64,000 nucleotides of DNA from Pyramidobacter sp. YE332 (GTDB lineage Bacteria; Synergistota; Synergistia; Synergistales; Dethiosulfovibrionaceae). The position numbers were made by a program, and so were the translations under genes. The stretch spans positions 434,001 to 498,000 of the forward strand of contig NZ_CP133038.1 of assembly GCF_033060595.1 (NCBI RefSeq), in the 5' to 3' direction. Under the pieces are notes generated by a model. The model saw only the letters and a list, made by a program, of their open reading frames with translations. It did not search any database and was not told where the DNA came from. Of this stretch, positions 50,200 to 55,141 are shown piece by piece. How positions within the stretch are numbered: position 1 is the first letter of the stretch; each line of letters starts with the position of its first letter.

Positions 50200-50318
50200 G
50201 AAGAAAACTCCTTTTCAATGGGGGAATGTATCCACTTTACGCTTTCCGGCGCGCCTTTTCAAGCGCGAAAAAAACAAAGGCCGCTTTCCGCGGGGCGGTC
50301 CCCGCCGGCGCTCGGAAC

Positions 50319-50898
50319 TCAGCGGAAGAGCAGCAGCGCGCCGGAGAAGATCAGGTAAGCGTAAACTATTTTGCGCAGCTTCGCCCCGTCGAGTTTGTGG
50401 AAGACTTTGTTGCCGACGAGAATGCTCAGCCCGACGGCGGCGGCCAGCAGCAGCCAGACCCGCAGCACCTGCGCCGTGATGATGCCGTTGCGCCAGCGCG
50501 CCGGCGATGCAGCCGTTGAACGGCGACGCCTTGATGCGGATCCGGCCGCTGAAGAACACCGAATATACGCCCAGAGCGATGAGGATGACGCCCAGCGAAC
50601 GAGTGAGCGCCTTTTCGGCGGCGCCGACGGAAAGATAGACCGACAGGCTGGAAAAGATCATCCCGCAGATCAGGCACGGCACCAGCTTTTTCCAGCTGAT
50701 GAAGCGGTACGTATTGGACAGCAGCAGCAGATCGATCGTCAGCCCGCAGAGAGTGACCACCGATACGGACTGCATGTAGGGCATCAGGTAAGGCCAGACC
50801 GACATGGCCACGGCGCCGAGCCCGAAGCCGCAGACGGTGTTGATGATCCCGCCGGCGGCCGCGGAGCTCATCAAAAGCGCGAGGGTGAGGACATTCAT
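50319..50898 (-). pseudogene. TSUP family transporter with internal deletion and frameshift
   Basis: The N-terminal part (MNVLTLALLMSSAAAGG... to FNGCIAGALA, about 135 aa) and a C-terminal part in another frame (RNGIITAQVLRVWLLLAAA... to IFSGALLLFR) both match the intact paralogue at 49474. About 45-50 residues between them, including the SVGGPP core, are missing. The join sits on CGCTGGCG, a sequence expected on both sides of the gap, which points to a microhomology deletion. Non-functional as a transporter. Confidence 0.8.
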
Positions 50899-51203
50899 GG
50901 CAGGTCTCCGTTTCTGGGTGATTTCCCGCTTACTCTACTCCTGAAAAACGATTTGTTCAAGGATTTTCGCGCGAAACGTCGCTCGGGCGGCGGCCGCGGC
51001 CCCGCCGCCCCGAAAGGCGGGAGCTTCCGCGGGCCCTCCGCCGACTCCCTCGGCGGCGCGCTTTGCGATGAAAAATCCGCGCCGCGACGAATACAATTCG
51101 TTATCTTTACGCGGGGGGGGGGGATGTTAAACTTGTAAACGTCAAAAGACAACATATCGTACGCCGCTCCATGCGGCGTGCCACACAAAGGAGGCGGATC
51201 GGG
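50899..51203. other. adhesin upstream region
   Basis: GC-rich sequence with small hairpins (for example CCGCCG-N7-CGGCGG near 51040), then an AT-richer promoter region containing the G11 tract. No gene is seen in either strand. Confidence 0.5.
51101..51133 (+). promoter_or_regulatory. promoter candidate with an 11-base G tract (phase-variable)
   Basis: A run of eleven G (51113-51123) lies 80 bases before the adhesin start. It falls between a -35-like TTTACG (51106-51111) and a -10-like TAAACT (51128-51133), giving a 16-bp spacer that would change with each slipped G. The boxes are weak matches; the tract itself is certain. Confidence 0.55.
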
Positions 51204-51440
51204 ATGAAAACGAAGGGAAAATTCTGCGCCGCGCGGGCGCTTCTGGCTCTGGCGCTGGCGGTCACGACAGCGGAAGCCGGCTGGGGCATCGTGACGGGAG
51301 ACCAGCTGCAGATCGGCAGCGCCGCCCTTCCGGGCGTGGGCGCGCTCGTCGTGATCGGCTCCGACTCGCAGGCGACCGGCGCTGACGCCATCGCGATGGG
51401 GAAGGGGACGGCCGCCATCGGTTTCTCTTCCATCGCGATG

Positions 51441-51995
51441 GGACAGCAAACGACCGCCAGCGGCGGCTCTTCCACTGCGATGGGAGGGGAAACGACCGCC
51501 AGCGGCGACTATTCCACCGCCATGGGATGGAAAACGGCCGCCAGCGGCGACTATTCCACCGCCATGGGAGGGGAAACAACCGCCAGCGGTTTCTCTTCCA
51601 CCGCGATGGGACAGCAAACGACCGCCAGCGGCGACTATTCCACCGCGATGGGGAGTTACACGATCGCCAGCGGCGACTATTCTACCGCGATGGGAGGGGA
51701 AACGATCGCCAGCGGCGACTATTCTACCGCGATGGGATGGAAAACGACTGCCAACAGCCAGTTTTCTACCGCGATGGGATGGAAAACGACCGCCAGCGGA
51801 GACTATTCCACCGCGATGGGAGGGGAAACGACCGCCAGCGGCGGCTCTTCCACCGCGATGGGATGGAGAACGACCGCCAGCGGCGACTCTTCCACCGCGA
51901 TGGGATGGAGAACGACCGCCAGCAGCCAGTTTTCCACCGCGATGGGACAGCAAACGACCGCCAGCGGCAGCTCTTCCACCGCGATGGGGGGGAAA
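51441..51995 (+). repeat. 42-bp tandem repeats encoding YadA head motifs
   Basis: Thirteen consecutive 42-bp units (51441-51986) plus a partial one, each encoding a 14-residue head repeat such as GETTASGDYSTAMG. Unit types (GET, WKT, QQT, SYT) recur in mosaic order, showing gene conversion or slippage. Three further units follow the IS (about 53336-53463). Confidence 0.9.
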
Positions 51996-53335
51996 CAGGG
52001 CAATCGCTTACGAAAATCCACTCGAGGAAATTGCCATTAAGCTCACGAGAAGAAGAAAGCCGCAACGCAGAAAAGTAAGTTCATCCCAAGAAAGCCTCCC
52101 TGCGGTAGAATACAAAGAAACACCGAAAACGCCCCAAAACACCGACAGGAGGCACGAGAATGAACCAGACATTTCTGGAACTGCTGGCAGAAATTGAAGA
52201 TTTCCGCACAGGCAACGCGATCCACTATCGGCTCCAGGATATCCTTCTGGTCAGCGTGCTGGCCGTGATCTGTAACATGGATACCTATACGGAAATGGCC
52301 ATGTTTGCCGATCATCAGAAGAAATATCTGGCGCCGTTCTGCGACTTCCGCCACGGCACCCCTTCTCACGATACCTTTGGCAAGGTGTTGAGCCGCCTCG
52401 ATCCCCGTGTGTTGTCCGAACGCTTCAACGCCTGGATGAGCGAGCTGTACGTCCACCTGGGCAAGCTGGCGGAGTCAGGAGGCATGACCGTCGCCATCGA
52501 CGGCAAGACCATATGCCGCAGCGGCAGTTCCGAACAGAAAGCCAGTCACGTGCTCACCGCTTTTGCCAGTCGGGCGCAGCTGGTCCTCGGTCAGATCAAG
52601 ACCGACGAGAAGAGCAACGAGATCACGGCCATCCCCGAACTGCTGGATCTCTTTCAGGTCAAAGACACCGTCGTCACCATCGACGCCATGGGGACGCAGA
52701 AGGACATCGCCGCTAAGATCATCGAAAAGGGCGGAGATTACGTCCTCGCCGTCAAAGGCAATCAGAAGAAACTGCACGACGACATCATCTGGCACCTGCG
52801 CAGCGAAGCGCAGGACACAAGCACAAGAGAACTCAAAGCCAAAGGACAGTATGCCAGCACCCTGGAGAAGGATCATGGGCGCATCGAGAGAAGAGAATGT
52901 TACCTCTCCAACGACCTGAGCTGGTTCGAAGGACTTGAAGGCTGGCGAGGCATCACGGGCGTCGCCTGGATCCACAACACCCGGAACGTCGATAACAAGA
53001 CCAGCACTGAAGACCATTACTTCATCTACAGCCTGAAAGGAGCCCGGGCGCAAGACCTTCTGCGCATCAAGAGAGAGCACTGGGCGATCGAGAACAACTT
53101 ACACTGGATGCTGGACATGGCCTTCAGGGAGGATGACTGTCGGGCGAGAGCGAAGAACGCGGCGGAAGTGATGAACATTCTGCGAAAACTTGCTTTGCAG
53201 ATGCTGAAGACCTGTGAAACGTGCAAATGCGGGATGAGGAGCAAGCGCAAGCTCTGCGGGCTTGGCGTCCCTACGGCTCTGCAGGTCCTGGGACTGGTGC
53301 CGACGGGCTTGCTTATTTCGTAAGCGATTGCCCTG
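51996..53335 (+). mobile_element. ISAs1-family insertion sequence, complete
   Basis: A 1340-bp element with perfect 20-bp terminal inverted repeats CAGGGCAATCGCTTACGAAA (51996-52015; complement at 53316-53335) and a 9-bp target duplication GGGGGGAAA (51987-51995 and 53336-53344). It encodes one transposase. Intact ends and gene suggest a recent, possibly still mobile insertion. Confidence 0.92.
52160..53323 (+). CDS. ISAs1 family transposase
   Basis: A 387-aa DDE transposase. The N-terminal [26 protein letters not shown] matches the H-repeat-associated/ISAs1 domain. Catalytic acidic residues are expected in [14 protein letters not shown] (about 111), [15 protein letters not shown] (about 173) and the C-terminal [21 protein letters not shown] (about 312-332). 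The gene is intact and ends inside the right terminal repeat. AGGAGGCACGAG precedes the ATG. Confidence 0.94.
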
Positions 53336-55044
53336 GGGGGGAAACGACCGCCAGCGGCATATATTCCACCGCGATGGGGAAGGGGACGACCGCCAGCGGT
53401 TTCGCTTCCACCGCGATGGGGCAGTGGGCGACCGCCAGCGGCGACGCTTCCGCCGCGATGGGGTACGCTTCGCAGGCGAAAGGCAGAAACTCCCTGGCCG
53501 CGTCGGGCGGCGTCACTGAGGGAACGGCGGAAAACTCCCTCGCCGCGGGCTGGGGCGCCCACGCCAAACTGGCCGGTTCCGTCGCCCTCGGCAGCTTCGC
53601 CACCGCGGACACCCCCGCCGGGGAAACGGCCTTTTTGGCCGGCGGGCAGACGGAGCCGGCCTGGAAATCGACGCACAACGCCGTCGCCGTGGGCAACCGG
53701 ACGCCGTACAGCTATACTTATACCGACCTGAACGGCAATCCCGTTACGGAAACCGTGCCGGCCGCCAGCCGCCAGATCACCGGCGTGGCAGGCGGCACGC
53801 ACGGCACCGACGCCGTCAACATCGCCCAGCTCAAACGCGGCCTCTCGTTCCGCGCCTTCGACTCGAACGGCGCGCTCCTGGGCGCGCTGGACATGGAAAG
53901 CGCCGCGGCCGCCCCGGCCTTCAGGGCCGGCGAAGGACTGAAACTGACCGTCGACGGCCAGACCCTCGTCCTCGAACTCGACGGCGCCGGCGGCTCCTGG
54001 AACCTCGACACCAAGCCCGGCGCGCAGCCCCCGGCCGCCGTCAATCCCAACGACACGGTGACGTTCACCAGCGGCGACAACATCGCCATCACCCGCGACG
54101 ACAAAAACGTCACCATCGCCACGAAAGCCGACGCGAACTTCAACAGCGTCACGGCGAACGCCTTTACGGCCGGTGGCGCCTCGATCACCGACAACGGCCT
54201 CGTCATTGAAAACGGCCCCTCAGTCACCAGGGCCGGCATCGACGCCGGAAACAAAAAGATCGCCAACGTCGCCAAAGGAGAAGTCAGCCAGACCAGCGCC
54301 GACGCCATCAACGGCTCGCAGCTCTGGGGCGTCTCGTCGAGCGTTGCCGGCCGCTTCGGCGGCGGCTCCACGGTCAATTCCGACGGCTCGATCAGCGCGC
54401 CTGCCTACACCATCCGCGGCGGCACATACCATAACGTCGGCGACGCCCTCAGCGCCGCAGACACCGAATTCACCAACATCTACAACAATTTCGGCAGCGT
54501 CTACGAACAGATGGGCGAACTGCGAAGCGACGTCAAGAACGTCGGCGCGCTGAGCTCCGCGCTCTCCGGGCTGAAACCGATCCAGTACGATCCCGTCAGG
54601 CCCAGCCAGATCATGGCCAGGTTCGGCAACTACCGCGACACGTGGGCGCTGGCGCTGGGCGTGGCGCATTACGTCAGGGAAGACTTCATGGTCCACGCCG
54701 GCGTGTCGATTACCCACCACGGCGAATCGATGGCCAACGCCGGGCTGACGTGGAAGATCGGCAAGAAGGAAGACAAGGACGCGATCCCGGCGCGTTACCG
54801 CAAGGGCCCGATCGGCAGCGTCTACGTGATGCAGAAGGAAAACGCCGAACTTGCAGGCCCAGGTGGCCTCGATGGAGCACGAGATGGCGGAGATGAAGGC
54901 TTCGCAGGCTCAGGAAATTGCGGAACTGAAGGCTTCGCAGGCTCGCCAACAGGCCGAACTGAAAGCGCGCATGGCGGAACTGGAACGCCTGCTGCGCGCC
55001 TCGGGGAGGGCCCGGTAGGCGGGGAAAGCATAAGAAATCATATG

Positions 55045-55084
55045 AAAGGCGCGGACTGGATTTGTCTCCCAGTCCGCGCCTTTT
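55045..55084 (+). terminator. intrinsic terminator of the adhesin gene
   Basis: AAAGGCGCGGACTGG (55045-55059) pairs with CCAGTCCGCGCCTTT (55069-55083), ending in TTTT. Confidence 0.85.
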
Positions 55085-55141
55085 CGTTTGTTTTATGACC
55101 GCCGCGGCGGAGCGCGTTTTTTTCAACGTTTCATGAGTCCA

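Follow-up and report, generated by a model that had tools for sequence, protein, structure and literature searches.

In the genome of Pyramidobacter sp. YE332, an unusually long poly-G run lies directly in front of a gene for a YadA-like adhesin, raising the question of whether it acts as a phase-variation switch of the corresponding promoter. Within the window, that is, the whole stretch of 64,000 nucleotides analysed here, a divergently transcribed gene for a TauE/SafE-type permease (50215..50898, – strand) is separated by 305 bp from the adhesin start, and this gap contains the predicted promoter. Its core on the + strand consists of TTTACG (51106–51111), a single C (51112), eleven G (51113–51123), ATGT (51124–51127) and TAAACT (51128–51133). 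Re-reading these positions gave the same result as the first-pass annotation, which had placed G11 between TTTACG and TAAACT with a spacer of 16 bp. The tract had also been described as much longer than any other homopolymer noticed there, and it is indeed the longest of the window and the one G/C run exceeding 7 nucleotides, with A/T runs reaching a maximum of 8. The next-longest G/C runs are two G7 (51986–51992 and 53335–53341), both largely overlapping the target-site-duplication copies of one insertion sequence. For G/C runs of at least 11 nucleotides, Markov models of orders 1–5 predict 0.002–0.03 occurrences per 64 kb, and extrapolation of the observed run lengths gives 0.0003–0.001 for the 64-kb window. 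In the 2.8-Mb genome, one other such run is found, G13 at C1:1271142-1271154, which forms part of another copy of this promoter.

Judged by the sigma-70 consensus, the hexamers of the window promoter are weak, each matching at 4/6 positions (8/12 for the pair), and the pair is absent from the list produced by a standard sigma-70 consensus scan. Hence, the promoter assignment rests on a family of copies. This family first surfaced when the upstream region was used as query in a DNA search, giving short secondary matches centred on the tract. When searching for the pattern (A/T/C)ATCTTTAC(G/A)C followed by G5–G13, nine matches were obtained in the window genome (G000), seven in the conspecific strain C12-8 and one in a sister species (G002), together referred to as the 17 copies in the following. 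A second G002 copy with an interrupted tract was added by a profile search. At the nine places in the 2.8-Mb genome, a 22-bp box, A..A.ACAAT.AG..ATCTTTACRC, is followed by G5–G13 and a TATGNT-like –10 hexamer. The window version of this conserved upstream box, which is common to all nine copies in the genome, is AATACAATTCGTTATCTTTACGC (51090..51112, + strand). None of the nine departs from TATCTTTACGCGGGGG at more than one position, and the next matches show 3 mismatches and occur at about the frequency of a reversed control. Throughout the 17 listed copies, TTTAC is invariant and the –35 and –10 hexamers, assigned by sequence alone, enclose the homopolymer (17/17). On the 3' side of the tract, a short T(A/G)TGA-like stretch precedes the –10 hexamer, which reads TATGAT, TATGTT, TATGCT, TAAGCT, TAAACT or TAGTGT.

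Conservation is confined to the 22 bp before the tract and the –10 region. Among 8 copies, mean pairwise identity amounts to 0.96 in the last 10 bases before the tract and 0.70 in the preceding 12, and drops to 0.30–0.36 upstream of the box. About 16 bp of the box lie upstream of the –35 hexamer, which suggests a bound activator, and the box probably represents an activator site plus the –35 hexamer. The region downstream of the promoter is less uniform. In the window, a hairpin with a 9-pair stem is predicted in the 5' leader (51159..51181, + strand), between the expected transcription start at about 51140 and the ribosome-binding site GGAGG (51190..51194, + strand). Similar GC-rich hairpins are found in some copies and are absent from others, and a known RNA element in the leader was dropped from consideration, the Rfam search with the window leader being without match.

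Every one of the nine G000 copies precedes a YadA-type adhesin ORF, facing the same way and located about 80–265 bp ahead of the likely start. The module is thereby found at 9 of the 17 adhesin loci of the genome encoding the YadA anchor (PF03895). At the remaining eight anchor loci, C10 is present upstream (2502099), G8 in the coding sequence near the start codon (1679302), G7 at –54 (1368996) and G6 in the coding start (2345664), while nothing notable was seen at the other four. Of the 7 runs of at least 9 G in the genome, 5 lie at 5' ends of adhesin genes. Behind the module, the adhesins at 228350, 1116019, 1271150, 1585845 and 1985937 are intact in G000, and four of the nine are interrupted, these being the window adhesin, 278385 and 779343, both broken by the same IS5-like element, and 2326140, which has a frame break.

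With TTTACR as –35 hexamer, the spacers of the 17 copies are 8, 11, 11, 12, 13, 14, 14, 15 (four copies), 16 (five copies) and 18 bp long. Several copies have spacers of 11–14 bp, far from optimal, and would either be silent or rely on a different –10 hexamer, such as the TATGAT located 5 bp nearer at 228350. In the G002 ortholog of copy 1271150 (C1:271744), the tract is broken up (CGCGGAGAGAGGGATGA), leaving TTTACG and TATGAT at a distance of exactly 17 bp. By its sequence, such an interrupted tract should not slip easily.

The first-pass annotation had proposed comparing tract lengths among isolates, and this comparison, made between two assemblies of one species (G000 versus C12-8), revealed unequal lengths in 4 of 7 orthologous pairs, namely 11/6 (window), 6/9, 8/9, 13/9, 10/10, 9/9 and 5/5, as read from assemblies, in which homopolymers are error-prone. 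As control, G/C runs of 4–6 in the same G000/C12-8 window alignment (55.8 kb) were unequal in 2 of 348 cases. Large G/C changes of 3–5 units were seen at promoter tracts. The strains are also unequal in all three A/T runs of 8 in the aligned window. Instability is thus a general feature of long runs, as expected from slippage, and changes in the length of long homopolymers are in part a neutral property. In C12-8, the ortholog of the window promoter has G6 and has also lost GC and A beside the tract, and since neighbouring bases were removed as well, this change is not pure slippage. The resulting 8-bp spacer predicts that the promoter is off in C12-8.

Taken together, the window tract is very probably part of a poly-G spacer phase-variation promoter of the porA type, representing a module shared by an adhesin family in the Synergistota. 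The earlier suggestion that the spacer of the adhesin promoter acts as a slippage switch gains strong support from the nine copies, the length differences between strains and the interrupted copy at 17 bp. A sigma-70-like housekeeping promoter would be operating, with poly-G forming most of the spacer between TTTACR and TATGNT. Slipped-strand mispairing during replication would add or remove G residues and so move the spacer through and away from a working length of about 17 bp, raising or lowering transcription of the downstream adhesin gene and giving graded ON and OFF states. The invariant box beside the –35 hexamer probably binds a shared activator acting on the whole set. Because at least nine genes for trimeric autotransporters are preceded by this module, each cell would carry its own combination of adhesins, each expressed at a high or low level. 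As a whole, this combination of spacer slippage with an activator shared by the set is the best explanation of the locus, and we consider it likely with good confidence.

The tract might alternatively function as in the Bordetella fim promoters by setting the distance and helical phase between an activator and the –10 hexamer, with TTTACR belonging to the site bound by that activator. This would still be phase variation, is not exclusive of the spacer model and appears possible, albeit not probable. The extension of the box, the most invariant part, beyond the –35 hexamer would fit such an arrangement, as would the spacers of many copies, which are too short for ordinary sigma-70 use, and in B. 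pertussis a fim box together with a C-stretch governs a set of fimbrial genes (PMC1891110). However, a –35 hexamer seems recognisable, with –35-like TTTACR in every copy, TTTACA matching the consensus at 5/6 positions at three loci and TTGACA being found in the order's other family; moreover, the spacer of the interrupted copy is exactly that expected for sigma-70. Spacer-shift and activator-distance mechanisms can also operate together, as reported for the tpr genes of T. pallidum with CRP and poly-G (PMC7864442). A regulatory role would be dispensable altogether if the promoters had been duplicated with their adhesin genes and the G runs had since drifted without effect. Copies 278385, 779343 and 2326140 do share long flanks, showing duplication with the gene, and the differences in other long homopolymers between strains point in the same direction. 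Yet, the flanks of the other copies are unrelated, while box and long G tract persist, long G runs are rare elsewhere in the genome, and the tract occupies the most sensitive position of a promoter. Neutral instability is hence an improbable account of the module.

Even less can be said for promoter inversion, or for a small mobile element with the G run at one of its ends by chance. A weak inverted repeat surrounds the core in a few A-type copies (10/12 matches at 779343), but in most copies shuffled sequences yield 12-mer dyads as good as the best real ones, each of the 17 copies faces its gene in the same direction, and neither target duplications nor shared outer ends of a mobile element were seen. 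With one orientation throughout and no significant flanking dyad in most copies, the inverton is largely refuted, and the whole idea is extremely unlikely. Finally, G11 might be a sequencing artefact, as lengths of homopolymers are error-prone. This is very unlikely, since orthologous G tracts are present in two independent assemblies, that of C12-8 deriving from high-coverage short reads, so that uncertainty is limited to the exact number of G residues.

Phase variation by homopolymers in promoters is known mainly from mucosal pathogens, i.e., Neisseria, Moraxella, Bordetella and Treponema. Closest to the poly-G spacer promoter proposed here is porA of Neisseria meningitidis, as portrayed in the passages of the sources dealing with this gene: poly-G is located between –35 and –10, as in the Pyramidobacter module, with a spacer optimum of 17 bp (PMC3639595, PMC7864442), and tracts of 11, 10 and 9 G result in graded surface expression (PMC3639595). 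On the other hand, porA is a single porin gene, and these passages describe no paralogous promoter set sharing a box. The nearest adhesin parallel is uspA1 of Moraxella catarrhalis 195ME, where a G(n) tract is likewise found upstream of a trimeric autotransporter adhesin gene and changes its transcript level, 8–10 G giving low and 11–12 G high levels (PMC7302503). The likeness concerns the upstream G(n), and uspA1 is one adhesin gene compared to nine with a common box in Pyramidobacter. In Treponema pallidum, the passages on tpr promoters report poly-G of variable length for tprE/G/J, tprF/I and tprL, with a CRP homolog acting jointly with tract length on tprE/G/J (PMC7864442). Here, too, a paralogous family of outer-membrane proteins is concerned, albeit an unrelated one from another phylum, and the resemblance as described lies in the promoter poly-G. 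In Bordetella fim2, fim3 and fimX, a promoter box adjoins a homopolymer whose length affects transcription (PMC1891110). Paralogous surface genes sharing a box next to a homopolymer are also what is observed in Pyramidobacter, with the 22-bp box and G tract in front of nine adhesin genes. The fim genes differ by having a C-stretch, by encoding fimbrial subunits and by the model of a varying distance between activator and –10. The fim promoters are not known to have a spacer with a clear –35 hexamer. In the open literature, to which the search was confined, no paper on phase variation in Pyramidobacter was found.

Beyond the species and its sister, the profile search gave no copy in the family's other two genera or in three further Pyramidobacter genomes, and only four weak hits in the order. 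Two of these four look like genuine poly-G spacer promoters, that in G121 is less certain, and that in G112 is unconvincing. The two promoters, from two genomes of another family, read AAGTAATCTTGACA-G15-CATG-TATAAT and AAGTAATCTTGACA-G13-ATAGGG-TAGAAT, have TTGACA in the –35 place and precede secreted or lipoprotein-like ORFs. With E-values of only about 0.001–0.002 per genome over 151 genomes, the shared upstream letters need caution, and it is the near-perfect hexamers around the tracts that count more. As no further long-tract copies were present among the loci examined when 41 genomes of the other genus were searched, use of the module across adhesins seems to be confined to Pyramidobacter. 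A Bacteroidales match from the pattern scan was dismissed as chance, having G6 only and no recognisable –10.

In the strain carrying G11, the window adhesin itself is split. Its N-terminal part (51204..52040, + strand) shows a signal-like N-terminus and YadA head repeats (PF05658 YadA_head, 8.6e-54) and is truncated by a 1.34-kb insertion sequence (51996..53335, + strand) with inverted ends of about 20 bp (CAGGGCAATCGCTTACGAAA) and a 9-bp target duplication (GGGGGGAAA), encoding an ISAs1-like transposase (52160-53323, + strand; DDE_Tnp_1 with DDE_Tnp_1_assoc). Head, stalk and membrane anchor follow in the C-terminal part (53336..55098, + strand; PF05662, PF05658 and PF03895). Hence, head repeats, coiled stalk and YadA anchor are all matched, spread over two ORFs, and due to this split the switch in the window is probably left with no working adhesin product to control in this strain. 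The C12-8 ortholog, in contrast, is a single ORF of 730 aa with the same start and a PF03895 anchor match at the locus.

Further homopolymer runs and adhesin copies outside the module were also noted. At adhesin 1679302 (G000:C1 at about 1686800, – strand; also G003:C120:8438), a G tract lies in the first codons, with G8 and a closed frame in G000 versus G11 and an open frame in C12-8, likely representing a coding-frame switch. The C10 run is located about 140 bp upstream of adhesin 2502099 (G000:C1:2497292), and the ortholog in G001 (C128) also has C10. In this genome, from a sister species lacking the shared box, ACATATCT-G9-TATGACTT is found 62 bp before an adhesin-like ORF (G001:C33:912), a possible independent poly-G promoter. 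A shorter adhesin region, MAENTRIYRNRQRKAG..., is present in three near-identical copies (G000:C1 at about 8500, 2735000 and 2761000), which are apparently recent duplications, and no G/C run of at least 6 was found in the upstream stretches examined. Apart from adhesin genes, a G9/G10 run (C on the gene strand) occurs at the 3' end of a tRNA-Leu (AAG) gene (G000:C1:1344766), being nine long in G001 and ten in G000 and G002. In mutS (G000:C1:1479434-1481788, – strand), G6 compared to G7 in C12-8 leads to a frameshift replacing the C-terminal end (815 versus 860 aa); G001, G002 and G004 have no G run at that place. Two readings of this G6 come into question, an error of the assembly or a slippery site specific to the species within a gene for mismatch repair. 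A far-reaching version of the phase-variation reading, a coordinated combinatorial adhesin code in which nine one-box switches under one regulator, the coding-frame switch at 1679302 and a slippage rate switchable via mutS would act together, seems rather unlikely.

While the kind of switch is already known, its host phylum, the Synergistota, and the sharing of a single module by a family of adhesins are new. The module covers roughly half of the trimeric adhesins encoded by this gut and oral anaerobe, which has been little studied, and the interrupted-tract copy as well as the other-family copies with TTGACA and TATAAT make the spacer model directly testable. If confirmed, the poly-G spacer promoter would predict that the cells of one clone differ strongly in their surface adhesins, would explain differences between strains without gene loss and would provide a ready list of loci for read-out from metagenome reads.
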